This document shows, piece after piece, positions 1-24,620 of a stretch of DNA of 24,955 bases (positions are counted from its first letter, which is position 1; every line of letters begins with the position of its first letter). Made by a program: the position numbers and the translations under genes. The notes beneath the pieces are model-generated. The model was not told where the DNA came from. It made no database searches and was given only the letters and a program-made list of their open reading frames with translations. The stretch lies in contig NW_003135349.1 in the NCBI RefSeq assembly GCF_000003605.2, positions 481,784-506,738 on the forward strand. Reading direction: 5' to 3'. This DNA is from Saccoglossus kowalevskii (Eukaryota; Hemichordata; Enteropneusta; Harrimaniidae).

Positions 1-222
1 CAATAGTGTAATAACCTGCAACATGATACATATTCTATTTGTATCAAATAAGAAAGAAACAGAGGTGTACATAGCATGTCTTTGATATTATTTATACAAT
101 GGTAAGGTATAAGAAGAAGAATTACTTATGCCAAGTGAAAACAAGATATTCTACTAACAATTATTTACATGTTAATGTATTAGAGTAATAATACAATCAT
201 TCTGACAAAGGTAAATGACAGA
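1..222. other. Unannotated SIDT 3' flank
   Basis: AT-rich sequence downstream of the SIDT stop. No gene, RNA or clear repeat was recognised here. Confidence 0.5.
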
Positions 223-426
223 TACTGTAAAATACTCTATTTTCGCTTGGAAGTAATTTTCGCTATTTTCGCTGAAGGAATGATTCAGTGAAAATTCGGC
301 GAATATATTTTCCCCCATATTTTACATTCAACTCATCAAAAATCAGTGAAAATAAATTCCATACAAAACACCAAAAAGACTTTTCAGCGAAAATTAATTC
401 CATCTAAAATAAAGTATTTTACAGTA
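223..426. mobile_element. Inverted-repeat element, family 'TACTGTAAAATAC', copy 1
   Basis: The ends are TACTGTAAAATAC and its complement ...GTATTTTACAGTA. The interior has TTTTCGCTTGG, GTGAAAAT and CAGCGAAAATTAATTCCA blocks, also found at 14917-15128, 20184-20391 and 22821-22992. About 204 bp with no coding capacity, as expected for a MITE. A TA target duplication is possible. It may contribute to the SIDT 3' UTR region. Confidence 0.75.
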
Positions 427-429
427 GGT

Positions 430-435
430 TTTATT
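430..435 (-). promoter_or_regulatory. Possible SIDT polyadenylation signal
   Basis: TTTATT on the plus strand reads AATAAA on the minus strand, about 300 nt after the SIDT stop. This hexamer is common by chance in AT-rich DNA, so the call is weak. Confidence 0.25.
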
Positions 436-480
436 TTTCTGATTAAACGAATTTCAGCCAATGAAATCAAATATTTGATT

Positions 481-494
481 GTTGCCATAGCAAC
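481..494. promoter_or_regulatory. X-box (RFX) consensus site
   Basis: GTTGCCATAGCAAC fits the RFX-factor X-box consensus GTNRCC-N2-RGYAAC at every constrained position. It lies about 240 nt beyond the SIDT stop codon. Whether it serves SIDT, a gene to the left, or is only part of a repeat cannot be told. Confidence 0.4.
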
Positions 495-734
495 CAAGTT
501 TTGCATTTATCACGTAATCACGGCCTTCTTTTAGTGACCCCTTTCAATTCAGACATGCTCAAATCAGTGTTTTATATCCGAAGTTGATAATTGAAAACCA
601 CATTTGAACAATATGTTCATGGTCACATTGCTAATATATATTATTTGCCAAGTCCATTAAAACTAGCATTGTAAAACAGTCTTCACAACAATCCCAGCAT
701 GCATAGCAGTCATCTTTGATTATTTCTTCTCCAA

Positions 735-797
735 TCAGAAAACAGGAATTTTCGTTCTCGGGACACGATCTAAATCATCATCTAATGTAAGTAAAGT
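735..797 (-). CDS. SIDT: SIDT terminal exon with stop
   Basis: 63 nt, reading [20 protein letters not shown] and then TGA at 737-735. Family members end [14 protein letters not shown], so this is the true C-terminus and the length is normal. The acceptor is TTCTGTTCAG. A Pro replaces the Tyr usual near the end in vertebrates. Confidence 0.96.
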   Translation of the reverse strand, partial: TLLTLDDDLDRVPRTKIPVF

Positions 798-2536
798 CTG
801 AACAGAAAAAATCAAAAATGTTTTTATTATTAGGAATGATGAAAATTGTGCAATGGAAATGAAGTGAAAACAAAACTTTGGATATCACAAATTAAGTAGA
901 AGTTGTATTCTGAAACAGTGACTATAATTAAATGAGTTTTGCATAGTTTCTGCTGCCACCTAGAATAGGGCATGGACCTACCAACACAGGATGAACATCA
1001 AGATTAAAGTATTAAAAAAACATTAATTTTTTATTTATTGGTTCGCCTAATCTCTTTGATGTACTATGTGTGTTGCCGCTAAAAAGGGGGCGTAGCTCTG
1101 GTACGGAAAATTAAATATTTTGTGAATATAATACAAGAGTTGCGTAGTTTCAGTGATGGGTCAATAGACATGCGCATTTCATCACAACCGGAAACTCTCA
1201 ATAACTTTGCCGTCGCTGCTTTCGTTGGATGTAAAGCCGGTTTCTCCACTTTTAATGTTAGAAATTATTACATTTTTCAAGAAACCATAACATAATTTCC
1301 GATCCATGACGCTTTTAATGTTAATAGTCATGTAAATTCTTTTTTGATTGCAACATTCGGTGACTGTTGCAGTAGTTTGCAGTTGGGTTTTTTCGCTCTG
1401 AATATTGCTTTGATTTGACCAGCATAGTTTGTTTACATGTATGTTAACTATCTAGTGACATATTTCTGGGTTGATATCGTCTGTTTCTCCTTCTCCACAA
1501 GACAAAATGAACTAACATCCAAAAGTATGTCTTCCAACGCTTCTACGGTATTTCTTGTAAATCGCAGGATTAGTCTGATAAGAGTTGAGTGCCTGCAGTA
1601 AAAAGCTAATAAACATTAATTAATCTCAAATAGAGAGTAAATAGTGGCAATGCACATAGATCAAAAGCCAGTGGGTTGATGTTCATCCTGTGTTGGTAGG
1701 TCCATGATTAGTAGGCCTTGTCTTTAAAGTTGTTTTGCCAGCAATATTGTAGTGTATTGAAGTGATATAGTAACTGTAAATGTAACAGCACGGTATTTAC
1801 AATATATTTGCATTAGTTTTCTTTTTTATTTAACACTTTATTTAAAGAGGGTAGACCAAAATACAATAAAGTAATTTTCATTGGGACCTCTGTGGAGGCA
1901 AACTAGTGTACATGGAAAAATTCAACAGTATACATTCTATAAACTTGAACCATGAATAACAAATTTCGCACCAAGATATATTTTGTATGTTTTTTAAAGA
2001 TGCCTAAAAATAAGGCTGAATTTCTTTGAGGCAAGTCATTTCATAGCATTAACTCACCGTACTGAAACGTCCTTTGATCCAAAGATGTTTTCCATTTAGA
2101 AATGTATAAACCAATCATACCTACCTAGCATACAATACATTTTTAAGTTTACATACATGTAGGTCAACTTACCATGAAAGAGAAAAACATGGCACACGCT
2201 GACAGGAAATGCCAGACATCATGAAAGTCATAAAAATCTAATAATATACATTCACGGTTTCCTTCACGAGACACAGCTGGCGTTTTCTGTCAAAGAAATA
2301 TTAAATTTTTTTTTAATTTTTAGATGATGATTTGCAGCAACAAACTGTGGAAGTACATACAAAGTATATCAAAACTCTGCTACTGTTTGGGATGCATACT
2401 TTATTCTTTTTTTATTGACAAAGTACATTATTAATATATACAAATTAACACAAGCGGTGCTAGTCAAGTCTACTGCTCAATATAGAAATGAATAATGTAC
2501 ATTAAAACGTACTAGTGCAACATAAATTAAATAAAA

Positions 2537-2567
<31 letters not shown>

Positions 2568-5500
2568 ATGAATGAATGAATGAATGAATGAATGAATGAA
2601 TGAATGAATAAATAAATGAATAAATAAATAAATAAATTAATAATCAACAAGATTATTCACTACATAATCAAGTTATCAATAAAGAGCAGAGACAATATTT
2701 GTATAGTTTTTAGATGCATTGGAAGCAAGAAAATTGACCAAAGTTAGTTCTCTTTAGGTGATATGATTTGATTTGGAAGAGAATCTAGTGTTGTAAAGTA
2801 GTCACATAGCTTACAAGGAAGTCTATTAAAGTGAAGATCATGTATGATGGTGCATAATTGGTATTTGAATAAGTCATAAATGTGTAAAATGGCAAGTGAA
2901 ATAAAGTGTGGTAGGCTATGAGTAAATTTATCACTGAAAGTCGTATTATGCACATTTGTTTGCAGGTTGTAAATCAGAGCAAGGGATATAATGGTCACAA
3001 CATGAAGAAATATGACAGTGGTTCATCTGAAATATCATAACAATTAAGCTGGCTGTTATCAATAAGAAGTTGAAAATAGCATTTTTAATAAAATAGCATT
3101 TTTAAAAAAATAATTAACTAAAATCAGGAAATTCAAGTTATTGTCACAGAATGAGCAGATGACAGAAAGTCCCTTACACGAAAAGCTCTACTCTGACATT
3201 TTCAGTGAAAACAGGGCTAACTAAAAGGGCTATAATTTTACCACTCTGTGAAGTGACTACAAACTGACTGGGTTCAATTAAGTATGATAATCAATTCAGA
3301 ACCTTTGAAGATTAGAATTATGGGACTATTTTGTGTAGTGGGTGGAAGGAGACAAGAGATGACAATGGTGGTGAAAAGGTTAAGATACTTTTGTGTGGTA
3401 ATCAATACTTACATCCCACTGTGCAAGACCCTGCATGAAAAAGTAGAGTGCTGCAGCCCAGAAAGCAAGAGTCAGACAAATAAACAGACCAGCTCTTGGT
3501 ACAATGCGTTCATTATTCCTAAGCTGTAAACAAAACAAAGCAAAAATAATCTGAGTAAGACTCCGTAGTGAACCACAAGAATATAATTAATAAGATCAAA
3601 TACAAGGTGCAATCATATGAACTCAAAACACACAAAATATCTTGAGATTAGATATCAGCCCTTTAATGATGTTCTTACCTTCATAATAATATAGAATGCC
3701 AGATACAGCATAGAGTTGACAATGAAAATGGCAAGTAGAAATGATGCAAAGTCCTTAGGTTGAGATATTACACCAAGGATGGCACTGGAATAAAGAATAC
3801 CAGTATATCTTGAGTTAGTAAATGTGTATTCAAACCAGTTTTTCATTTAGATTATTGACGGGATTATATATTAACAGTGTGTGAATCATAAATTTCAAAA
3901 ATCTGTTATATTATAAAAAAGTTTTCATTTTGATAGCATTGAATTCTTATGGTATTTGATATGCATGGTAAACATGCACAATTTATACTTTTATAATTCA
4001 ACATTTTTGTCATGAATTGCACCTTTTTCAAAACACAATTTCAATAATAGGCAATTTTTAATTACTAAATCTTAAGTTTAAACTTGAAAAAGAAAATGCA
4101 AGGAGTCAGTACAAACACACACATAATATGTTCGACTATGAAAGTTTGTTACTCCTCAGAGCCTGACTTAATCTGGCCAAGGACGTCAGACATCATGAGT
4201 ACATTTTTGTATGTTTCCAAAACTCAAGACTCGATTCATGACAATTCTAAACACTTTTAGGAGCTACACAAAAGTCAAATAAAAACTTTCATTTGACTCT
4301 GTACAACAACTGTATAACATTATGGCATATATGCCAAGACTGTCACTGAATCCACCTGTATTAGATATTAAATACCTCAGCATTTAAATAAGCAGAAACC
4401 TTAGTTATAATTTTCATGACATTACTTTCACTGTTTACAAAGCATTTATATTACTGTAAATCCTTTTCCGACGTATCTGCTATTATGTATGTATGTATAC
4501 TAAATATGATTATGACTCTGTAATTTTGTCACCAAATCAAAAGAGCTTTCAGATAAGATTGACATGTACAAATCAGATTTATTAAAGTTTTGTACTGTAA
4601 ACTGCATTCACACTGCAGCAAATCCATTTTTTTAGAATTCCACAGAGCAGGACCATGCTGGACATTTTTTTTGGTACTATTAATACTCATTATAACAGTA
4701 CTACCACTTCAAATAAGATCTGTTTGTATGCCCCTGCCAGGTGTCTTAGACAGCAGACTTTTTAAATTAGACTTTGTGGCAGTCCATACTGGGAAATACT
4801 ATCATATTCCTAATATATGTCAGTTTTCAATAATATTTCCAGTAAATCTGATATTGATATTTTTTTCTACACTAAATAGTTTACATTAACAAAATCAGTT
4901 ATTTAATCATTTTAATTGCACTTTTTAATTTTATTCTTATATATTGTCTGTTTTTTGTTTATGTCTGGTGGTCATAATGCCCATTGATCTAGTGTATTAA
5001 ATACACAAAACAAAGTTGATAATTTTTAAGTATTAAAAGTCAAAAATAGCAATTTCTACCAAAATCACAATTTTAAAATATGTGCCAAAAATAGAAAATT
5101 AATGATTGAAGATATCATCATGAAATGAAGAAATCAGACAGAGATCCACCCAAGATACCATCAAAGTATCAAATTAATTGGCTTGGTAGTTTTAAAGAAG
5201 AAGTTGAAAATAGAATTGTTGATGAACGATGGATAGACAGTGACAGACAATCACTAATATGAACAATTCCGCAATTTTTATAAAAATATAGCACTAAAAA
5301 TTTAATGCTAAAATAGTACAGAAAGGATACTCACAATGACCAATTAATAACATTTCCTATGATAAGTAAGATCATACGGTCCTTCAAATAGACAGAAAAA
5401 TAATTAATAGATTGATTTCCAACTACATTTGTCTAATACAGTAATGAGTGAATGGCATTCTCAATGAATCGGATGTTTAAATCTCTGTGTAAATCCTGAC

Positions 5501-8500
5501 AAGTGAATCTATGTTATATAACATACATGTATTACTATCGCAGCGTGTAGCGTTCAAACACCAATGCAGTGGGACAGCAAGCAAATTTGTCAGTTACTAA
5601 TGTTGGTTTCAGACAAGCATCCAGAACATGAATGAACAGTCTCACTTCCCATAATTTGTGAAATATCAAACAAAATGGTGCTGCCCATTAAACAGAAATG
5701 CATCATTTTCAAACTCTACCTTGTAGATTTCTTCCATACTCTTGTATATATACATATATATACACATAGAACTCTCTTTGTGGCTAGCCTTTGACCACTT
5801 TCGTTACACTCGCTACGACTTACCATATATATTGGTCTTGTACAGTGTAAACAATCTGTCTTCATAACCAGATAAATACGCTTAAAAATACCAAGATCTG
5901 AAACCAATAATATTTTTAATAATGGGATGTCTAAAGAGTTTGATGGGATGAGTAGAGATATTGTGTGTTCTTCATACACTGAGAACCACCAATACAAGAT
6001 TATAAGAATCAATCAGGGTGGTGGTCATTGCCTAATCGCAAGTTTTTCATAAAACGTCGAAAAAACACAAGAATTAGTAGAAATATTCCTATTTTGGGCG
6101 GATTATTGATAGAGAATAATGAAAAACCATGAGTTTTTGCCTTAGTCATTTTTTTATCAGTGAAAAACTGCGAACTGCACAAATTTGGTTGCACAACTTC
6201 CCTCTATCATATACACCCAGCGACACCGATGCCAGCTGACTGTGGTTGGAACAGATCAAAGAAGTTGCCAGTGGTAATTATTGCACGTTGCACCCAGGTG
6301 AAAACTCATACTCATGATTTTCATTAGAAGAGCGCATTGGATTGTGGGAAAATTGCAACGACCACCAACCTTTAATAAACAATGCTTTGATTGTTTTTGG
6401 TTTTTTTACAATTTCTCTAATTTTAATTCATAATTTAAATTTCAATCAGATGATTTGATGTTTTATTTGAGAAATATAATTATAATTTAAATATTTTTCA
6501 AGTCAATGTATTAAATCATTTTCTTACCTAGTTTCCATCGCCCCATATAGTAAATCTGAGCACTCAAGACACAGCAAGTGACAATATGCACCACTGCAAA
6601 CACAACCCAAAACAGTAATGTACCAAAAACCTGGAATAAAACAGAATTAGGAAAAACATAATGATCAAACACTGTGGCATTGGCAATGACGCTTTCAGAG
6701 TCAAAATAGCTCTACTTTCTTTCCTCAAAACAAACTTGACAATGTTCCGTACAATAATAATATTTATTAGACGCATAAAATCCTTAGGAAAGGATAAAAA
6801 ACTATAATCTAAAAGGAAAAAAAAAAAAAAAAGGAAAAAACCTATTCTAAAAATATAAAACAAATCAAAAACAAATATGAATAAACAATAAAGACACTTT
6901 GCAACCAATGGTGAATACAGAATAGAGAATATGATACTAGCTAATTACCATGGTTATTATTCCCACAATATTCTTGCCATATTACAACCATGGTAGTTTA
7001 TTTGGTTGTTGCCATGACAATTACAATTGTTACCATATGATTACAAATCTCAGAGTTCCACCCTAGAAGCTACATTAGTACAAACCAACTATCAAAGCAA
7101 AGAATTTTTACCAGAATTTACAAAAATATTTGAATGTAAAATAATATTGACTTGTGTCTATTTTAAGGTTTAAGTTGCTATTGATATTCATGAGGAGTAA
7201 AATGGCAAAACATTATTCAATGGGTTTTAATTTTGCTTATTTCGCTGACTGGAAAATCTGCTTAATTAAAACCCAGTGAATATGTAAAATTTAGCACAGA
7301 ACACATTATCTAAATGATAAAACTGTGAATTTAAAACCCACTGAATATGCCTGAAATGGTAAATCAGCAAAATTTAAACCCAGTGAAAATTAGTCATTTT
7401 TAATACAGTATTTGATTGAGCTATCTTTTATCGCATTTTAAAAATTTTTACAGAAAATCGAAGAACAAGATTGTACTGTAACATTGGCAAATAAACAAAT
7501 AAATATAATATTTTGTTATCATAAAAGAATAAGAAAGGGGAACATGTTCTCATCTGGAAATTGAATACTGGGTGGGACACTACGTTAGAAACAGGAAGTT
7601 TCAGTGCTGGATGGCAGAGATTATCTGCACAAAAACATGACTTCCTTTACATATTTTTCTTCATTCCGTGTAGTTGTCTTTACATTTTTTATTTTTAAAA
7701 GCAAATTTAAATTTGCAATAATATTGTTTCCAATATTATTTTTATATTTGATTTGTTTCAATACTGAGTGAACTTTGCTTGGTACATGTACTTCTTTTCG
7801 TGGAGGTTGAGTTCAATTAAAAATAAAAAATATAAATATTATCAAGAGAAACAGATACATGCAAAATAACAAGTTTCATATCCTCTATGATCAGTTTCTT
7901 ACTCAAACTATATTTAAAACTGAACTATTATAAAATTCATTCAAACCAGATACATGCATTGAGTCAACACTTAGTTAATAACTTCCAAAAACAAAAATAT
8001 AGGATCGACAAAACCATCCAAACTACGCTAATTTTATATAAAAATGTTCTCTTTTCAAAACAAGGATCTCCATTAATATATCAGTAGTAAATCTGCATCT
8101 GCTAAGGAGAGCCAGTTTAGCCTTTTCATCACCAGACTTCCTTGCCTTTTTTCGTTTTTCTGGAAATTAACCTCGATTTTATAGCCAAATATTTGAGTCA
8201 ATTTTCAACATTTTTCTCAAAAAATTTAGCTATTTGTGTCCCAATCTTCTGAAGGAAAGTGCAAACTCTAAAGAGAACTATTTTGTGAATTTGTGATGAA
8301 AAGACGGAACAGGTGTTGAAAAGGTTAGACATTGGGGAACCAGTCATGTCTCCAATAATTTAACAATACACAGCAAAAAGCAACAAATGTTTTCTATATC
8401 CTTAGTCTCTGTTATCACAAAGCCTCTGGCCAAAAATTAGGAGTAATATTAACTGTGAACATTCTAAGCTTGAAATTAACAGCAGAAATTATGCATTTCC

Positions 8501-11500
8501 TGTGAAACAGACCACTTCCTTCTGTTCAGACTCAGTTTCTCACTTCCTTTCAGTCGACACAAGTCACAATGTGCATTACATTGTCAGCTGTGCAATGGAT
8601 AACTGCAGAGTCATTGGCTCCTTGATCTGCCTTACTTTGGTTTATTTCTCCTCTGTAGTACTGTGTACTATAACACCACCAAATGAAGTGCAAAACATCT
8701 TGGCTGATGTAGAACATGATGGGAAAACACTTCCAGTTACTGCAGTAACAACTACATCACCGTCTTCATCTATTGCTATGGGAACACGCTCAAAACAACT
8801 AGTTGAACTGTTGAATATAACCAAAGGACAAAAGACAACAACAGCAGCTCAAGATACTAGAACAGAAGAGGTAAGGAGTATTCATAAAACTAATGAACTG
8901 AAAACTAAAAACGTTTCTACCACAAATCAAACTCAGAAAATGGACATATTATCAATAATCACAGAAAGTACAGTTCATAACAACACTCCTACACAAAGTT
9001 TGGGATATTCCATGATTGACGGAGGAAAAGTAAAAGTCACTGATGCAGAAAATACACCAAGAATGTCAACAACATCTAGAGAACACCGGGTTACTGAGAA
9101 AAAAACAAAACAAAGCAAGGCTTCTGTATTTCTCAATAGTAAATCTGCAAACAGCCAGTTTAGTCATTTTAGAACCAGTCACGTCCCAGAAATTGTCTTA
9201 TACACCAGTACTTCACAAAATAATAGGGCTGCACCTGAGAGAACTCCAACTGGAACGCTAGACACAACAAATGATGGAGTACTTTCTTCTAGACGAAACA
9301 GAGAAACAGTTACCCGGCCACCACATCCAGGTCATCCATTTTTGAGTAAGTTGAACAAGTCAGATGATAACTCAACCACCCCTGCAATGATGATGGAACA
9401 TTCCACTCAACAGACAAATAGTTATTTTATTGGGTGTGACAGCAGCCCTTGTAAAAACGGTGGAACATGTCATACACGGTATGACAAGAGTACAACATGT
9501 TCATGTACACCAATTTATGTGGGATTGACCTGTGATACATTACTGCCGTTTCCAACTAACATATCAGTGTATCACAAGACGAAAGACGCAATAACTGTAA
9601 CCTGGTCAAAGCCGAAACAGCTTGCTATGAAATCTGATATAAGCGGCTATGTGATCCAGCACAATAAGTTTGGAAACGACAATAAACAACACACTTCAAT
9701 ACTACACCCAACTGTAACATTTTTTACGGTTCGAGAACTTGAGCCGAATACACGCTATACTCTGTGTGTCTGTATAACATTGGATGACACCGTGAAAATG
9801 CCATGCGCGGTACTACGTAGTCAGTGCACAGAGGCTGAAACACTGACGAATCCATTGACAACAATTAGCATAAAAGCCGCTAGCATTATACTTGGCTTGA
9901 CAGTAGGAATATTTCTTCTCATCATTGTCTGTATGCAAATTACACAGTGGAGGAAAGATAGAAAATACAAACTACCCCTGAGATCACGGGCAAGGAATTC
10001 CATTCTTTCCAGCATAAACGGTGTACAACTCCCACGACAACAACCACAGTGTCTCGAGACAATCACAGAAAATGTTGAACTGAAAACCTTATCAGAGCAG
10101 GCTACACTACCACGTATCAGCATTGCTGATGACATAGCATCCCAGCATGAAATTAACAACATTTTCCCAACGATTGATAATGAAAATTACAATACATTTA
10201 AAAGTGATAAAAATGCAGACAAGCAGCGCCCTAAATCAAAGATACCACAATGCTCGACAACACCACGACATACCGATGCTTGCAATGAATTTGATTTCTC
10301 TGATGCATATTTCTTACCTTTACCTGACCCACCTACATCAACATATTAGTTCATATAATGTAGTTTAACCTTTTCACCACCAGACTTTTTCGACTTTTTA
10401 TTGTAATTTCTTAAATTTTTCTGAAAACGAACCCTAATTTTGGGGCCAACATACAAAATTTGTATAAATTTTCAGTTTTTACTCAAAAAATTTGGCTATT
10501 TTTGTCTCAATCTTTTGAAGGATAGTGCAGACTATAAGCAAGACTATTTTGTGAATTTGTGGAACTGGTGATGAAAAGAATAATTTGCATAATTGTATGT
10601 AGATTCAATTTTACATTTATTGGTAAAAGATTACCTCGCTTTACCAATTCTCATAAACAGTATTTCTTCCCTGTGATATTATTTGAACTTTGATTTGTAA
10701 AAAAACTTCTCACTCATCCCTGTAAGCAATATAGGGACTTGATTTTGTACAGTTCATGAGGAATCTTATCCAACGGGATCTTGAAATCAAATTTAGAAGG
10801 GTGTCCTAAAACAAGTAAAATGGTCTTGAGTGATTATAATAACTAAAATCAAAGAAAGCTTAGAAAGAACTCTTGTGTGCTAAGGATATTGGGGGTATGA
10901 GGACACAGGTACATGTATGGATTACAAATAAGGAATAATGTCAAACCATTTATTTTCACTGACATTTAATTTCACTATTTTGATGTTTTGAGCATATTCA
11001 CTGTGTTGTAATTTCACAAATTTGTCAAAAAACAATGGGTTCTATTGTTACTTTACATATACATGTAATTTAATTTAGCGGATTTTACTAATCAGTGAAA
11101 ATGGAAAAATTAAAACCTAGTGAATAATCAATTCATGTACAGTATTGTAATAATAATAATAACAATCTTTGTTGCATAATCGTATCCTTATTTGGATATT
11201 GACTCAGAAAAAGTAAATTACAATAAAGATGAAAAACTTATGAAGTAACAAAATGGAAGTGCTAAATTTATTTTTTTATTTTTTATTATTTAGGGGCAGC
11301 TGGATGTTTTTTTGAAATGATTTTCACTCGCACTGAAACAGTTATAGATGTAGCTTGCTAGTTTTGTTATTTTTTCTGGCTGTTATTGCTTGTTAGCATT
11401 GTAATCATCTTTATTGTATTTACTATATTAGAAGCACATCATTAAGCAAAATCATTAATTATATACTGGTATTATTTTGACCACAGATTTGCATTTGTCA

Positions 11501-14500
11501 TTTAAATTTGAACAGGTGTACTTCTAATAGAACAAATACATCACATAAAAATATAACTGCAAGCTGTGATCAGAGTGGTTCAAATGAATCATATATGATG
11601 ACCTGATGTTTCATATATCTAGTGCTAGTTGCATATTATTACAATATTACGGTTTGCATATTAATGAGGTCACATGACCATATATGAGCATGTGGTATGT
11701 TAGTCAAATGTCCTTATCTACCACAGTGCTTAACTGAGATATTACATTTATGCATATTAATGAGATCACATGACCATATATGAGCATGTGGTATGTTTAA
11801 TAGTCAAATCTACCACAGTGCTTAATTGAGATATTACATTTACACACATTAATGATAAACCCATTTCTACAAGGTGGGTAAATTAATATAAATGGATTTC
11901 TACCCTTAAGTAAACAAATCTATGACTTATCCCAGAGAACCTATGTACCAAATTTCATTGAAATTTGATGAGAGATACTCAATATAGCTGTAGAACACCC
12001 TTAAACTGGTTAATTTACGCAAATTAGTAACTTGAAGCACATAATTTAATCCTGAAACTGTATGTGGCTTACCCCAGAGCACCTATGTAACAAGTTTTAT
12101 TGAAATTCAATGAGTGGTTGAGATATATGTGAAAAAGCTAAAAATTGGGAAATTAATATGCACAGACTGCAACTAGAAACTAATCAAGTATGCAAATTAT
12201 CCCAGACCTATTATGTATTAAGTTTCAATGAAATCTGTTAAGTGATTCTTGAGAAAAAAATGAGAAGGCATAAAACTGGCTAACTAATATGCAAATTAGG
12301 TTATTAATATGCAAGACCTTCAATTAAAAACCAGGTCTGCACATTATCCCAAGGCATCTATGTATCATTGAAATTTGCTTAAAATGGTGAAAATGCTTAA
12401 AATTGGGTAATTAATAAGCAAATTAGGTAATTAATGTTCAAAGACTGCAACTAAAAGTTAATCAGATCTGTGCATTACCCCAGACCATCTATGTATCAAA
12501 TTTCATTAAAATCTGTTTTTAGTTCTTGAGAAAAAGGTGAATAAACCTAACATTGATGAATTAAAATGCAAATTAGGTAATAAATATTCAAAAATTGCAA
12601 CCAAAAACTTATTTGGTATGTGCAGACCATCTATTTATGTTTCATTAAAATCTGTTATTATTATAGTTCTTGGGGAAAGAGTGAAAAGGCTTAAAATTGG
12701 CCAATTAATATGCAAATTAAGTAATTAACATTCACAAATTCAACCAAAAACTAATCAGGTATGTGCATTATTCGAGGGCATCTATGTACTAAGTTTCATT
12801 GAAATTCGAAAATTGGTTCCTGAAATATAAAGATTTGGTGACTACAATTCATAACCATTAATGCAGGCTAACTTCATCTAGTATCCCATGCCAACTGATT
12901 TTATAAATTGTCATGGTAATCACAATAATCAGTAGAAGGTGTTCTGCATACAGTAAATGGTAATGCAACTTTAACACTTTTTCTTTTCAGTTCATCTTGT
13001 TGTATTTTTACTGTATTACTGTAAGTTGTATTGTCAGCAAAAAATTATTTGGAGCCATTGACCTGTTAAAGCGAGGGAGTCATCACCTACGCATGCATCA
13101 GGTGGCCATAGCATGTTATTGTTTACAAACAAGTGTTTACCCATAAGCCTTTGTGTTCTTAGTGTGTGTTATTCATTGCTTGGAACTCAATTCCCGCGCG
13201 TGCGCAGGTGACCACCCTTTAGCTTCAGTTATAGTTGTGTTTCAACACACTCCTAAAGCTGAATTCAAATTGCAATGCATGATGGGATTAATTGTTAGTA
13301 TTGAAAACAAATGACACAAACATTATGTACTCCCTAGTTTAGTTGTGTTTCAACACACTCCTAAAGCTGAATTCAAATTGCAATGCATGATGGAATTAAT
13401 TGTTAGTATTGAAAACAAATGACACAAACATTACGTACTCCCTAGTTTAGTTGTGTTTCAACACACTCCTAAAGCTGAATTCAAATTGCAATGCATGATG
13501 GGATTAATTGTTAGTATTGAAAACAAATGACACAAACATTATGTACTCCCTAGTTTAGTTGTGTTTCAACACACTCCTAAAGCTGAATTCAAATTGCAAT
13601 GCATGATGGGATTAATTGTTAGTATTGAAAACAAATGACACAAACATTATGTACTCCCTAGTTTAGTTGTGTTTCAACACACTCCTAAAGCTGAATTCAA
13701 ATTGCAATGCATGATGGGATTAATTGTTAGTATTGAAAACAAATGACACAAACATTATGTACTCCCTAGTTTAGTTGTGTTTCAACACACTCCTAAAGCT
13801 GAATTCAAATTGCAATGCATGATGGGATTAAAGTAGTTGATAAATTGTGCAACATGTCAAATCTTGATATATATGAATGTCGTAACTTTCAGATTTGATT
13901 TTGGCCATGTAACTCTGAATTGAAAAGTTTTGGTTGAAAATACAACTTTAATTCCTTTGTTTGAAATTGTAATGATGCTTTTGTTTTTATGATTCATTAT
14001 TTTCATACCTAACCTAATTCTAATTATTTACTACATTTTTTATTTTATATACAGTACTAATACCAACAGTAAGTCGTTTGCATTCATGTATGTTATAATA
14101 CTTGTTTTTTATACTAAATTATTTGCATACAAAAAAAAATCGTTGGTAGCATTTTGTTTTTATGCTAATAATTGTTTTTTCCTGATGACATTGTTTTTTT
14201 TTTTAAATTGATGATTGTTTATATGATGTGATTCCTTTGTTTTTAGATTGATGTTACTTTTGTTTTTATATTGATGATACTTTTGTTTTTATATTGATGA
14301 TACTTTTGGTTTTATATTGATGATACTTTTGGTTTTATATTGATGATACTTTTGTTTTTATATTGATGATACTTTTGTTTTTATATTGATGTTACTTTTG
14401 TTTTTATATTGATGATACTTTTGTTTTTATATTGATGATACTTTTGTTTTTATATTGATGTTACTTCTGTTTTTATATTGATACTTTTGTTTTTATATTG

Positions 14501-17500
14501 ATGATACTTTTGGTTTTATATTGATGATACTTTTGTTTTTATATTGATGTTACCTCTGTTTTTATATTGATGATACTTTTGTTTTTATATTGATGATACT
14601 TTTGTTTTTATATTGATGTTACTTTTGTTTTTATATTGATGATACTTTTGGTTTTATATTGATTATACTTTTGTTTTTATATTGATGATACTTTTGTTTT
14701 TATATTGATGATACTTTTGTTTTTATATTGATGTTACTGTTGTTTTTATATTGATACTTTTGTTTTTATATTGATGTTACTTCTGTTTTTATATTGATAC
14801 TTTTGTTTTTATATTGATGATACTTTTGTTTTTATATTGATGATTTTTTTGTTTTTATAGTGATGATTTTTTTGTTTTTATATTAATGATACCTTTGGTT
14901 TTATATTGATGATACTTACTGTAGAGTGCTTTACTTTCGCTTGGAATTAATTTTCGCTATTTTTGCTGAAGGAGTGGTTCAGTGAAAATAAAATCTAGTA
15001 TATATACATGTTTTCCTATATTTTGCATCCAACTCATCAAAAATCAGTGAAATTAAATTCCATGAAAAACACACAAAAAGTCTTTTCAGCAAAAATTAAA
15101 TCCAGCTACAATAAAGTATTTTACAGTACGTCTTTTGATGATTCCTTTGTTTTTATATTGATGATACCTTTGTTTGGTTTTTTCATAATGATATTTTGTT
15201 TTTATATTGACAATACTATTCTATTTTTGTCATTCTATAACTGGTCATATATAATTTAGTTTTCAACTTCTAATATACAAGGATTGTAATGTGTTGATAT
15301 TTGTCTTTACAAAAACAAGTTTTAGTGTTTTAACTATTAATAATGTATGATAGAGTTTCCTTTCTGCAATGCACAATACGTACAATAACTGCTAGTTAAA
15401 ATATGAGCTTGTAAAGTATTAGCATACATTGCAATTTAAAAAACATTTCATATCTCAGAAATATTTATTCTTTTGATTTATTTGCTCCTCATGTGTATCG
15501 AGTATAACGATAAAAAAATCTCCATAAAAAAAATAAAAATAATATGCATAAAATGTAATTTAAGCAGAATTTCCATAGACCACAACAAAAATACGAACCC
15601 TTGTTAAAAACCCACTAAAAATATTGTCAATTTTTTTAATATTTCTAGAAATCATAAAGTATCTTGTAAGACACTTTTTTTTCATCATATATCATTGAGC
15701 AAAATTGTGAGATATTGAGATATATCCCTGCAATAAAAATCAATGTTAGAATGTTGTGAAACAGAGAAAACATGCTAGTTTTAATCCATTGTTAACTGAG
15801 TATGGATACCTCATAGTTTTCATCATTGTAACGTGATATATCAAATATATGAAAATAAAGAAAATGACAATAATTTGATATTTTATGTCACATTCCATCT
15901 TAAAAAAACAAATTTCCCCAAATATTTCATATCTCCTTACAAGTACATATGAAAACATACAAAACTTTCCACCAAAAATTTAAAAATTTGAAATGATTCA
16001 TCCCCAAATATTAAAATGGCGGAGTCGTCACCTGCGCATGCGTCAGATGGCCATAGCGTGTCATTGCTTACAAACAAGCGTCTAACCATGAGCCTTTGTG
16101 TTTTTTAGTGTGTGTTGTTATAGTCGCTTGAGACTCGCGTGTGCAGGTGACGACCCTCTCGCTTTAAACATTTTTCAAATACTTTATAAGAATAAAAATG
16201 ACTGTACTTACCACACCCATAACAGCTAGAAATATAATAAGTGCAAAACATGCATATGCTACATAGGCATTGGCGTTGATATCTGGATGACGAGTTTGGT
16301 AGAGTTTCAACATTCCTAATCCAGCTATTATGTACATGAATGATGTATCTGAAACAAAGGACAATTACAACATGATTAGCTAAACATTGTCCACGTCCAT
16401 AATGTGTCTGCATGCCTTTGTCTGATAAAGCAACCGCAATCACCCACTTAAGAAAAATAACTTACGCGGATGGATAACTCATTAACATTAATTAGAATTA
16501 ATATTATCATCACAATACTATTGCAGGATTGGTCAATGAATTCTGATATATCCATTTTTATTCATATAAAATTTTTATGATATAACTGTCATCATAACGC
16601 CATAAATTACAGAGTGCCGAAATTTTGCGATATTGCACTGGGAATTTTTATCCTACCATATTAGGAAATGTGAGTTCCAAATATGGAACAATTACACACG
16701 TAACAAGCTCTAATAATTAAAACAAACATGGCGACCCACAGGATTTTACCAGACCCCATTAAAGAAGTTCGCTAAAACTGTTCTAAACTTTTTGGATTTC
16801 GGCATTCAAAAGATGTATCATTGGGAGGAAAAGATGTATAATATGGTAATTCGGTTATTATGAGGATTCACTCAGACAGTACACCGTCACATTGACGTCT
16901 GCTACGTCTCAATCGATACTCCTCCTGTACTGTCTTCATGCATACTTTTTGGTATCCTTGTAATAACAGGGATTGCGTTAACCCCATATTTTGCTTCCTG
17001 GACTTCAATTATTGAAGAGGGACCCATTTTTTCAGGCAAGCTGGGATCCAATCTCTAATAAAGTTATCCAGGGTTAAATTTCAATTTCGTAAAATTTGGT
17101 AAGTGGGACTAGCGCAAAACCTGTAATAACATTATAATATTCATAAAACATTTATAATGACCCCAGCTTTATACCCTTCTCCATATAAATTGCAAATTTA
17201 ACAAGAGGTAACTTACCAAATTGAAAGTTTGAGTATGTTGGACATACATGGTAGCACCCACTTAGAAATCCTTCCATAATCAGTGCTATACCAATGGCAT
17301 AAAACAAACCAAAGTGTTTTGGGATACCATACCCCTATGAGATGAAGGGAAAGAAATTGAATTTTAAGTAATAAATGAAAGTATAGCTCATCTCATTTTG
17401 CACGCTTGCATGTGTACAGTGATTGGTTGGCAAGAACTTGTCATTTGCACCAAAAGATAAACAACACTGTTGTTCGTTTTGGTTGTTATTAAATATACAT

Positions 17501-20500
17501 GTATGTGTCTCAGGGCAAAACAATAATGTGCAGCGTTGTCACAGCGGTCCATGAGACAGTTGCTGATGAGTGAGCAATATTTGTTATCATACCATACATT
17601 TGTTTGTTGTCCAATTTTGCAGCCATGCTTAACTAACTCCCCCCCCCCACCCTCGAAAGATTTCTATTGTTGGGGTTTGACTTAGTTCCCACCTCTTAAA
17701 AAATGTGATTTTTTGAGGTGAGTAGCGTGGGTGCTAAGTCAGATGAGTACAGTATATGCTTCATTATAGTTAATACTTCACTATAATAAACTACTGTAAA
17801 ACATGTCTTTTTAGCTAGCATGTTATAATAGCTAATCCACAATTTCACTAAATTAAGATATCACTAATTAGAATAGAGTATATTCTCACAGTAAGATTAT
17901 TGGCACTTTAGCTAAATTAAGATTCAGTTAGTTCATGCATGGAGTCAAATTTGCTAAAATGGCATGTAGCTATTTCAAAGTGTTTTATAGTAATTGTTTA
18001 AGAGTTTTTATAATAAGGTTACAGTGTATAGATATTGTGTAGTGTAGCGAGAGTCCATTCTTACTCATCTAATAACAATATATCAAGTGGTTGATTTACT
18101 CAAGCTACAATAACTGCAATATATATATACCTTTTCAAATTCATCATTTCTCTCCACAGCTTTCTTATGAATCGCATCCTCTCTCCAAATCACTATTAAA
18201 AACAATATGCCAAGTAAAATGTAGCCAATATTGCTGAATAGATTGTTGAAAGCACTGAAATATAAACATAACAAGCCATGCATGGCACAGTCCCCGTTAG
18301 TTATCAAATTTAAGATATAAAGTTTTGTTTATAGTAATATAGCTGGAATATAAACATGTCAGGAATATGATGATTGTTTAACATTTAAATGATTGACATT
18401 TGTATCTGATCGTCAAATGAATATTGAGGGATATTGCTCTGGAACAGCATTAATTAAAACAAAATCAGCCATTATGAATATATGTATAATGAATATATGA
18501 AATTTGAACATAGTCAGTCAAAGCATGTCAGAGATATGGCTCTAGAAGCCCATTCATTAAAACAAAATGGCCATTAGTCAGACATTCAGAATCCGATCTA
18601 AAAAATAAAACAATTTTTTTAGCACAAAAGTAGCCACCATTAGGCCACTTTGAAAAGGATCGTCAAACCACTATATCGGTATATCTGTGACATGATGTAT
18701 AATGAATATTAAAAATTTGAACATAATCAGTCAAAACAAGTCAGACATATGGGTCTGGAAACCCATTCATTAAAACAAAATGGCCATTAGTCAGACATTC
18801 AGAATTCGATCTAAAAAATAAAACAAGTTTTTTAGCACAAAAATAGCCACCATTAGGCCACTTTGAAAAGGATCGTCAAACCACTATATCCGTATATCTG
18901 TGACATGATGTATAATGAATATTAAAAATTTGAACATAATCAGTCAAAACAAGTCAGACATATGGGTCTGGAAACCCATTCATTAAAACAAAATGGCCAC
19001 CAGTCGGCCATTTTGAATGTTATCTGAAAAACAAAATTATTTGCAGCAAGGTCCCATAATGTCTAATGTATATATCAAGTTTGAACAAAATCCATCTGTA
19101 AACAGCCAAGAAATGCTTGATTTTTATGATTTTTAGAACAAAAATGGCCGCCATTCGGCCATCTTGAATCAGATCATAAAACAAAATGATTTTCATCAAG
19201 GTCCGATAATGTCCAACGTATATACAAGGTTTGAACAAAATCCATCTGTAAACAGCCGGGAAATGCTTGATTTTGATGATTTATAGAACAAAAATGGCCG
19301 CTATTCGGCCATCTTGAATCAGATCGTCAAACAAATTGACGTGCATATGTATGATATCATTTATGAAGTATGTGTGAAGTTTGATTGTGATTGGTCCAGG
19401 CATTTCTAAGATACAGGTCCGGACGCACGCACAGACGCACACACGCACAGACACACGGAGGTCAAAACATAAGTCCCCGTTTTCGGACTTCGTCCGAACG
19501 GGGACTAATTACAATGATCAGTTCAAATTAGCTACAAATGCATACTGAGTATTGGGTGCCACAGTTGCTCCACTGCAATGTGTACAACATGGGTCTCATG
19601 CATGTAAAACACATGTAAATGACACTTTTCATTTAAATACAAAATTCTAATATGACATCTTTTGTATATGTGACATCAAAGTGAGTACTAATTAGCAAGA
19701 GCTTAGCATTGGTTGTTGCATCAGACTCACGACTAAGTAACAATGGGTTCAATTATCAGTGTTCACTGATGACATCATTGACTGGCCCTCTAGAGGCGAA
19801 ATGACACCAGGCAAAGTGGACGTTTGTCATCTACTTCACAGCCCATTTTATACCCGATATTTAGGGCATTTCACAGCACATACAAGTTGTTCCTATCAAC
19901 AGAATTCATTCATAGATCTTAAATTTCATGTACAGAGTGACAAAAGTCAGACCTTTGTTCCCCTTTAAGCTTATTTGGAACTGAACAACAACAAGAGTAG
20001 ATCTCTACCCTGGGTGAATGTTTTAAGATTCTATGAGGCCGACATGAAGCCATGGTTCCCTGGATGAGTGCACAGAAACTCTACAGCGACACTGAAACCA
20101 CTAATTGATGTATGCAAAATTTGGGAAAATTAACATGCATTCTTCAGCTGTTTGTTATCAACTGAGCCTGGATGACAATGAGATAGTGTAAAATACTTTA
20201 TTTTGTTTTGAATTAAATTTCGCTGAAGGAATGATTCAGTGAAAATAAAATAAAGCGAATATACCTTTTTTCCTATATTTTACATACAACTTGCCAAAAA
20301 TCAGTGAAAATAAATTACATGTACATACAAAACACCCAAAAAGTCTTTTCAGTGAAAATTAATTCCAGCTATAATAAAGAATTTTACAATAGCACATAAA
20401 AATATATATGTCTTGCACTCCTGAACTTGGAAAATGGTTTCTGTGGAAAAATACAATATATGTCAGGATCCATACTTAATTCAATGAAACATTACAAGCT

Positions 20501-24085: not shown

Positions 24086-24315
24086 TAACTTTTTCACAAG
24101 ACTTTCTTGCCCAAATTTTCTGCACTTTTTTCTTATATTTTTCAATATTTCTGAAAATTAACCAAAATTTTGAAGTCAACAGATAAAATTTGAATCAATT
24201 TTCAGTTTTTACTCAAAATATTTGGCTATTTTTGTCCCAATCTTCTGAAGGAAAGTGCAGACTATAAACAAGACTATTTTGTGATAAAAAAAGAAAACTG
24301 GTGGGGAAAAGGTTT
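24086..24315. mobile_element. Inverted-repeat element, 'CCTTTTCATCACC' family, copy C
   Basis: The left end TTAACTTTTTCACAAGACTT and right end CTGGTGGGGAAAAGG are diverged. The interior matches copies A and B (ACTCAAAATATTTGGCTATT, TTGTCCCAATCTTCTGAAGG, AAACAAGACTATTTTGTGA). Confidence 0.7.
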
Positions 24316-24337: not shown

Positions 24338-24620
24338 GAACAACAAATCAGTACCATAGCAACTAAAAAGTTGATCATGTGTTACCATAGCAATGATAAA
24401 TGTTGCAATGAACAACAATTTGTACATCATGTGATGATATGGGAGCAGTCCAAGCAACAAATCAGTACCATAGCAACTAAAAAGTTGATCATGTGTTACC
24501 ATAGCAATGATAAATGTTGCAATGAACAACAATTTGTACATCATGTGATGATATGGGAGCAGTCCAAGCAACAAATCAGTACCATAGCAACTGAAGTTGA
24601 TCATATATTACCATAGCAAC
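24338..24620. repeat. 114-bp tandem array, about 2.5 copies, with RFX X-box-like sites
   Basis: CAACAAATCAGTACCATAGC occurs at 24341, 24455 and 24569, exactly 114 bp apart. Each unit holds AGTACCATAGCAAC and GTTACCATAGCAAT, which are one to a few bases from the RFX X-box. Because 114 is a multiple of three and the unit lacks stops in some frames, open frames of about 100 codons appear on both strands. They are not genes. Confidence 0.92.

Follow-up and report, generated by a model that had tools for sequence, protein, structure and literature searches.

What kind of gene is the long open reading frame that lies within an intron of a dsRNA-channel gene in the hemichordate Saccoglossus kowalevskii, and could its product be a relative of vasorin that has lost its leucine-rich repeats (LRRs)? 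We analyzed this frame within a stretch of 24,955 nucleotides, referred to here as the window (assembly GCF_000003605.2, contig NW_003135349.1, positions 481,784 to 506,738, forward strand), which is part of contig C2730 of the 572-Mb genome that was searched. The original prediction held that the frame is nested antisense in a 9.6-kb intron, and this placement was borne out: SID-1/SIDT exons flank a GT-AG intron of 9581 bp. Seven of the nine minus-strand exon candidates matched PF13965 (SID-1_RNA_chan), in profile order. The one candidate that was run against the PDB, 16212..16348 (minus strand), matched SIDT1 and SIDT2. The host features are as follows.

16212..16348, minus strand: SIDT exon preceding the host intron (PF13965, 2.4e-19; PDB matches to SIDT1 and SIDT2; borders read)
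6631..16211, minus strand: host SIDT intron, GT-AG, 9581 bp (borders read directly)
6528..6630, minus strand: SIDT exon following the host intron (PF13965, 6.2e-8; borders read)

On the minus strand, the intron begins with the donor GTAAGT from 16211 and closes with an acceptor, ...ttattccag, ending at 6631. The nested gene thus sits entirely within the interval that separates two coding exons of a single SIDT gene, on the opposite strand. By this geometry, a plus-strand frame within a minus-strand host, its transcript would be antisense to SIDT pre-mRNA, as had been proposed. The antisense sequence would be that of the SIDT intron only, and any effect on SIDT would operate through transcriptional interference or through pairing with the intron.

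The nested frame itself was as predicted, with 584 codons open on the plus strand and ended by TAG.

8595..10349, plus strand: coding exon of 584 codons, coordinates including the stop (ORF call, stop-to-stop frame, shuffles)

Measured from stop to stop, the open stretch spans 8406-10349 (plus strand) and comprises 647 codons. When the window was shuffled 100 times with dinucleotides preserved, the longest stop-free run was 170 codons, and 2000 shuffles restricted to the ORF stretch reached at most 201 codons, so a frame of this length is beyond chance. The G+C content is raised over the frame, from approximately 0.30 to 0.40. Searched against the genome, the 584-residue protein yielded one full-length match and two weak EGF-type matches at E ≤ 0.001. 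Based on these data, the nested gene is most likely a genuine protein-coding gene that is presumably expressed.

Same-direction repeats flank the ORF at 8200-8295 and 10466-10561 and are 82% alike over 96 bases. They belong to a dispersed repeat with 2014 candidate copies in the genome; all 40 that were scored matched, one of them being the window's own copy. Because the repeat is dispersed, the two flanking copies are not the borders of one recent unit. They also look old, and a mobile-element origin of the nested gene was rejected. Copies of this repeat within the window lie at 8200-8295, 10396-10561, and 24126-24291. The same SIDT intron holds two tandem arrays: one at 13227-13831, with 5.6 copies of 108 bp at 98% matches, in which a 35-aa frame recurs between stops because the period is divisible by three, and one at 14215-14917, where an AT-rich unit of 23 bp is repeated approximately 31 times. 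Further tandem arrays, at 18482-19339 and 24341-24619, have periods of 213, 150, and 114 bp. A perfect 31-bp inverted repeat (971-1001 and 1676-1706, 674 bases apart) may mark the ends of a small DNA transposon. To the left of the window, we noted by eye an NHL-repeat-like frame (L016, ~3468-4388, plus strand) and a reverse-transcriptase fragment (L018, ~7813-8709, minus strand).

The encoded protein is probably a type I cell-surface protein, based on its predicted topology. Its layout along the plus strand is as follows.

8595..8666, plus strand: signal-peptide-like start, residues 1-24 (hydrophobicity peak)
8667..9431, plus strand: Ser/Thr-rich stalk, residues 25-279 (no Cys, 28% Ser+Thr, six N-glycosylation sequons)
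9432..9539, plus strand: six-cysteine EGF-like domain, residues 280-315 (Pfam EGF 0.0019, under the cut-off; Cys positions)
9540..9848, plus strand: FN3 domain with F-strand Cys391 and with Cys411 near strand G, residues 316-418 (Pfam fn3 6.5e-10, AlphaFold2, Foldseek, alignment)
9864..9944, plus strand: transmembrane (TM) helix, approximately residues 424-450 (AlphaFold2, hydrophobicity)
9945..10346, plus strand: cytoplasmic tail, residues 451-584 (predicted topology)

Pfam placed an FN3 domain at residues 320-393, above the cut-off, and an EGF domain at residues 281-306 with 18.9 bits against a cut-off of 21.5. All six EGF cysteines are present (281/286/292/302/304/313). Hydrophobic peaks occurred in windows starting at residues 6-8, which are signal-peptide-like, and at 424-433, which correspond to the TM helix. 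The AlphaFold2 model of residues 280-467 had a mean pLDDT of 67.8 and contained the FN3 strands and, after them, a long helix; pLDDT was below 50 in its EGF part. The best 50 of 1803 Foldseek hits in the PDB were all FN3 domains or FN3-derived binders (top E, 3.6e-7), and the best 60 of 131 hits in a PDB sequence search were matches of the EGF and FN3 to Titin, Notch/Delta, fibronectin, and similar proteins. Pfam found no LRR, LRRNT, or LRRCT in the frame, and an NCBIfam search of the ORF returned no match. Thus, the six-Cys EGF, the FN3 domain, and the single TM helix of the original prediction were confirmed, and its tail of about 130 residues measured 134. The Ser/Thr-rich stalk, put at about 250 residues, proved to be Cys-free and 255 residues long; a further N-glycosylation sequon sits in the FN3. 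For the proposed signal peptide, the hydrophobic start was found, at a strength that warrants the description signal-peptide-like.

Vasorin has the order LRR-linker-EGF-FN3-TM, with a Ser/Thr-rich linker ahead of the EGF, and is encoded by a single coding exon; its gene is nested antisense in CORO7. The order of one EGF, then one FN3, then a TM helix in one frame, which had led to the comparison, is indeed present in the nested protein. The tandem LRRs of vasorin and their flanking caps are absent from the frame as judged by Pfam, and residues 25-279 contain no Cys. PMC12111917 describes vasorin (VASN, SLIT-like 2) as a protein of 673 aa with LRR, EGF-like, and FN3 domains, whose cleavage is assisted by ADAM17; PMC8994405 lists one CpG annotated to VASN/CORO7. 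The nested protein resembles vasorin as a type I protein with EGF-like and FN3 domains, but differs in its lack of LRRs, in its stalk of ~255 residues, and in an FN3 no more similar to that of vasorin than to generic FN3s.

The genome was searched with the EGF-FN3-TM part of a provisional human vasorin sequence, a query of 197 positions whose FN3 begins at about position 53. This yielded 150 matches at E ≤ 10 (150 of 167 candidates scored). Two of these passed query position 67: a frame on C4725, with FN3 only, and the nested frame, which alone spanned both EGF and FN3 (E = 0.068, rank 29, below EGF-only matches). The remaining matches were confined to the EGF part and the residues just past it. 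The EGF-FN3 segment had a z-score of 18.9 against the provisional vasorin, a value to be weighed against the equally high FN3 scores of generic controls. The nested FN3 was not closer to the provisional vasorin (Smith-Waterman score, 60) than to three generic FN3s (90-101). As the only match spanning EGF and FN3, the nested frame would be the candidate vasorin counterpart if the genome has one in a single coding exon. We do not file it as vasorin, because the LRRs are missing and the FN3 likeness is unspecific.

Relatives were also sought in the same genome. A query comprising the EGF, FN3, TM, and tail gave 127 matches at E ≤ 10, self included (128 of 161 candidates scored), and most of those listed were short stretches of EGF or FN3. 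For closer reading, four matches were picked on the basis of a long open frame, a match reaching into the TM helix, or as an FN3 example. L037 looks teneurin-like, and L038, an FN3, was used as a control. Kinship with a tandem FN3 array on C3752 and with the C4725 frame, which is Dscam-like by eye, was rejected, both being without the F-strand Cys. Two genes bear directly on the question.

G000:C3976:27500-35000, 1603-4491, plus strand: L035 receptor gene (single frame, 962 aa)
G000:C2733:133000-139000, 2753-3565, minus strand: L036 gene, LRRNT-like-FN3-TM (271-aa frame from its ATG)

L035 encodes LRRNT-LRR-LRRCT-Ig-FN3-FN3 in a single coding exon, with a TM helix recognized by eye and an LRRCT under the cut-off (0.0044). 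When its FN3 pair and TM helix were used as the query, the nested frame ranked first (E = 0.0227) among the nine matches in the genome other than L035 itself. The two genes share a single coding exon, an acceptor shortly before the ATG (21 nt in L035), and the same F-strand Cys in the FN3s, and the second FN3 of L035 has a 'GYxIQxNKFG' stretch in common with the nested gene. L035 differs in having LRRNT, LRRs, LRRCT, Ig, and two FN3s and in having no EGF match. In L036, an LRRNT-like start (0.011) and an FN3 (8.7e-5), both under the cut-off, are separated by a short linker and followed by a TM helix seen by eye; Pfam gave no LRR match. L036 resembles the nested gene in its single coding exon, its acceptor 35 nt before the ATG, the place of its F-strand Cys, and its lack of LRRs, and is unlike it in keeping the LRRNT-like start and in having no EGF, no long stalk, and a short tail. 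L036 would be a second LRR-less gene of the LRR-FN3 class in this genome.

A membrane-proximal FN3 that carries two cysteines, one in strand F and one near strand G, is taken as a mark of the LRR-FN3 receptor class. In the nested FN3, Cys391 lies three residues past Tyr388 of strand F. When the domains were aligned locally, a Cys stood in the Cys391 column in all four LRR-class comparators (two FN3s of L035, one of L036, and the provisional vasorin, amounting to two genes and one provisional protein sequence) versus none of 12 controls, a set that contains the near-duplicates L026/L027 and L046/L047 and in half of which (6/12) the alignment stopped short of this column. One control, L043, proved to be no FN3, and the remaining 11 had no Cys at 391 in end-free alignments (0/11). 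These alignments shifted the L036 Cys by one place, though its spacing from the F-strand Phe is the same. MAFFT aligned both Cys391 and Cys411 in all four rows, drawn from three genes. In pairwise end-free alignments, Cys411 was aligned with a Cys in L035b (the second FN3 of L035), not in L035a or L036, and, by chance, also in two controls. The two cysteines may form a disulfide between strand F and strand G.

Smith-Waterman scores against the nested FN3 were 101, 99, and 90 for the generic L026, L027, and L038, versus 94 and 78 for L035, 60 for the provisional vasorin, and 51 for L036 among the LRR-class domains. Raw FN3 scores do not separate the LRR class from generic FN3s. Because control FN3s score as high as those of the LRR class, kinship is judged solely by the Cys and by how the genes are built. 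Both are held in common with L035, a gene of the LRR-Ig-FN3-FN3 type, and kinship to LRR-FN3 receptors thereby gains support. Thus, of the proposal that the nested gene is a vasorin relative that lost its LRRs, kinship to LRR-FN3 receptors found backing in the F-strand Cys and the anatomy; descent from vasorin itself did not, given FN3 scores of 60 versus 90-101.

The gene anatomy rests on a splice site predicted ahead of the frame.

8534..8553, plus strand: strong 3' splice acceptor (sequence scan), with a predicted coding-exon start at 8554 (41 nt ahead of the ATG)

A strong acceptor precedes the ATG in all three genes, at 41 nt in the nested gene, 21 nt in L035, and 35 nt in L036. The chance of this per gene, taken as the proportion of window positions with a site of that quality within 50 nt upstream, was 1.3%, 1.3%, and 11%, respectively, the rates for L035 and L036 having been computed from the window's composition. 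Weaker acceptor-like sites near the nested ORF correspond to exon starts at 8530, 8536, and 8659, and a donor-like GTAAGT lies inside the frame at 9346. Past the stop, poly-A signals first occur at 11109 (ATTAAA) and 11222 (AATAAA), and the frame itself contains an AATAAA at 9681. Because of the acceptor 21-41 nt before each ATG, we infer for the three genes a shared plan of a non-coding 5' exon, an intron, and a single coding exon. The whole coding sequence of the nested gene lies in one exon, with splicing predicted upstream. The term 'intronless' therefore holds for the coding part and probably not for the gene, which as read from the sequence is probably a single coding exon behind a predicted 5'-UTR intron.

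The same acceptor, through which the frame stays open, could be taken to mean that the nested frame forms the terminal exon of a larger gene with LRR-coding exons upstream, and ten scattered plus-strand matches to a loose LRR pattern in window positions 1-8594 point the same way. That pattern matched 66 times in the window and 26 times in L035. A strict LRR pattern had no match on either strand of the window or in the unmasked left flank versus four in the control locus L035; masking covered 2.6 kb immediately to the left and 20 kb to the right. The signal-peptide-like start directly past the acceptor also argues against a longer gene, as does the requirement that its upstream coding exons interleave with those of SIDT. 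Hidden upstream LRR exons were rejected on the strict count, and we regard the longer gene as very improbable. A retrocopy or a decaying pseudogene of a multi-exon receptor would account for a coding part without an intron, and nested single-coding-exon genes have been attributed to retrotransposition (PMC3933685). We consider this origin most improbable, as 584 stop-free codons keep the domains in one frame and no parent gene was seen, the genome giving one full-length match.

More serious is a lineage-specific receptor assembled by exon shuffling from a mucin-like stalk, an EGF, and an FN3, which never had LRRs and whose likeness to vasorin is convergent. Consistent with this origin, there is no LRR remnant by Pfam or in the Cys-free stalk, the EGF is of the common Notch/Delta type, and some generic FN3s score as high as those of the LRR class. 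Shuffled genes usually keep introns between domains, and the nested coding part has none. Moreover, the F-strand Cys, the membrane-proximal FN3, and the acceptor followed by a single coding exon recur in two other genes, one of them LRR-bearing. We therefore hold shuffling to be possible, if rather unlikely. The leading reading, in our judgment somewhat more likely than not, is that this nested antisense gene with one coding exon is an LRR-losing member of a metazoan class of LRR-FN3 receptors with single coding exons, the class in which vasorin is closest in layout.

The setting has precedents. Among 91 human-mouse nested pairs on different strands surveyed in PMC3933685, 63 have zebrafish and/or coelacanth orthologs. 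For 19 of these 63, no counterpart could be located in frog or chicken, and 12 of those 19 pairs have a nested gene that codes for an LRR-superfamily protein. Retrotransposition is the source presumed there for nested genes that have just one coding exon. In a survey of extracellular LRR proteins, type I membrane proteins made up 81 of the 87 in the LRR-Ig/FN3 group (PMC2235866). Nested antisense genes of the LRR family are an established pattern (PMC3933685), and the gene described here, in itself of a common kind, is notable for its location. As in the vertebrate LRRTM/alpha-catenin and other nested LRR-superfamily pairs (PMC3933685), a membrane protein with one coding exon occupies an opposite-strand intron; unlike in pairs of the LRRTM/alpha-catenin type, the host is SIDT and the nested protein is without LRRs. 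Among the papers listed by literature searches, none dealt, judged by title and abstract opening, with a gene nested in SIDT or with an invertebrate vasorin.

If the nested gene is an LRR-losing receptor, its LRRs would have been lost from an LRR-FN3 receptor ancestor. What is left would be a long, probably O-glycosylated Ser/Thr stalk with nothing recognizable at its tip and, next to the membrane, the EGF and the FN3 with its two extra cysteines. From this layout, the protein would probably serve as a receptor for adhesion or ligand binding by way of EGF-FN3, its tail would bind cytoplasmic partners, and it is perhaps shed as vasorin is. A broader reading, which we offer tentatively and think doubtful, is that single-coding-exon LRR-FN3 receptors of this lineage have repeatedly shed their LRRs, in the nested gene and in L036, while keeping the Cys-bearing FN3, the TM helix, and the gene anatomy; a vasorin-type receptor would now act via a long stalk and EGF-FN3 alone, from within a SIDT intron. 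If LRR loss did not occur, the gene would be one more lineage-specific EGF-FN3 receptor. If it did, the gene would constitute a natural experiment separating the LRR and EGF-FN3 functions of vasorin-like receptors and would extend antisense intronic LRR-family receptor genes to another animal lineage.
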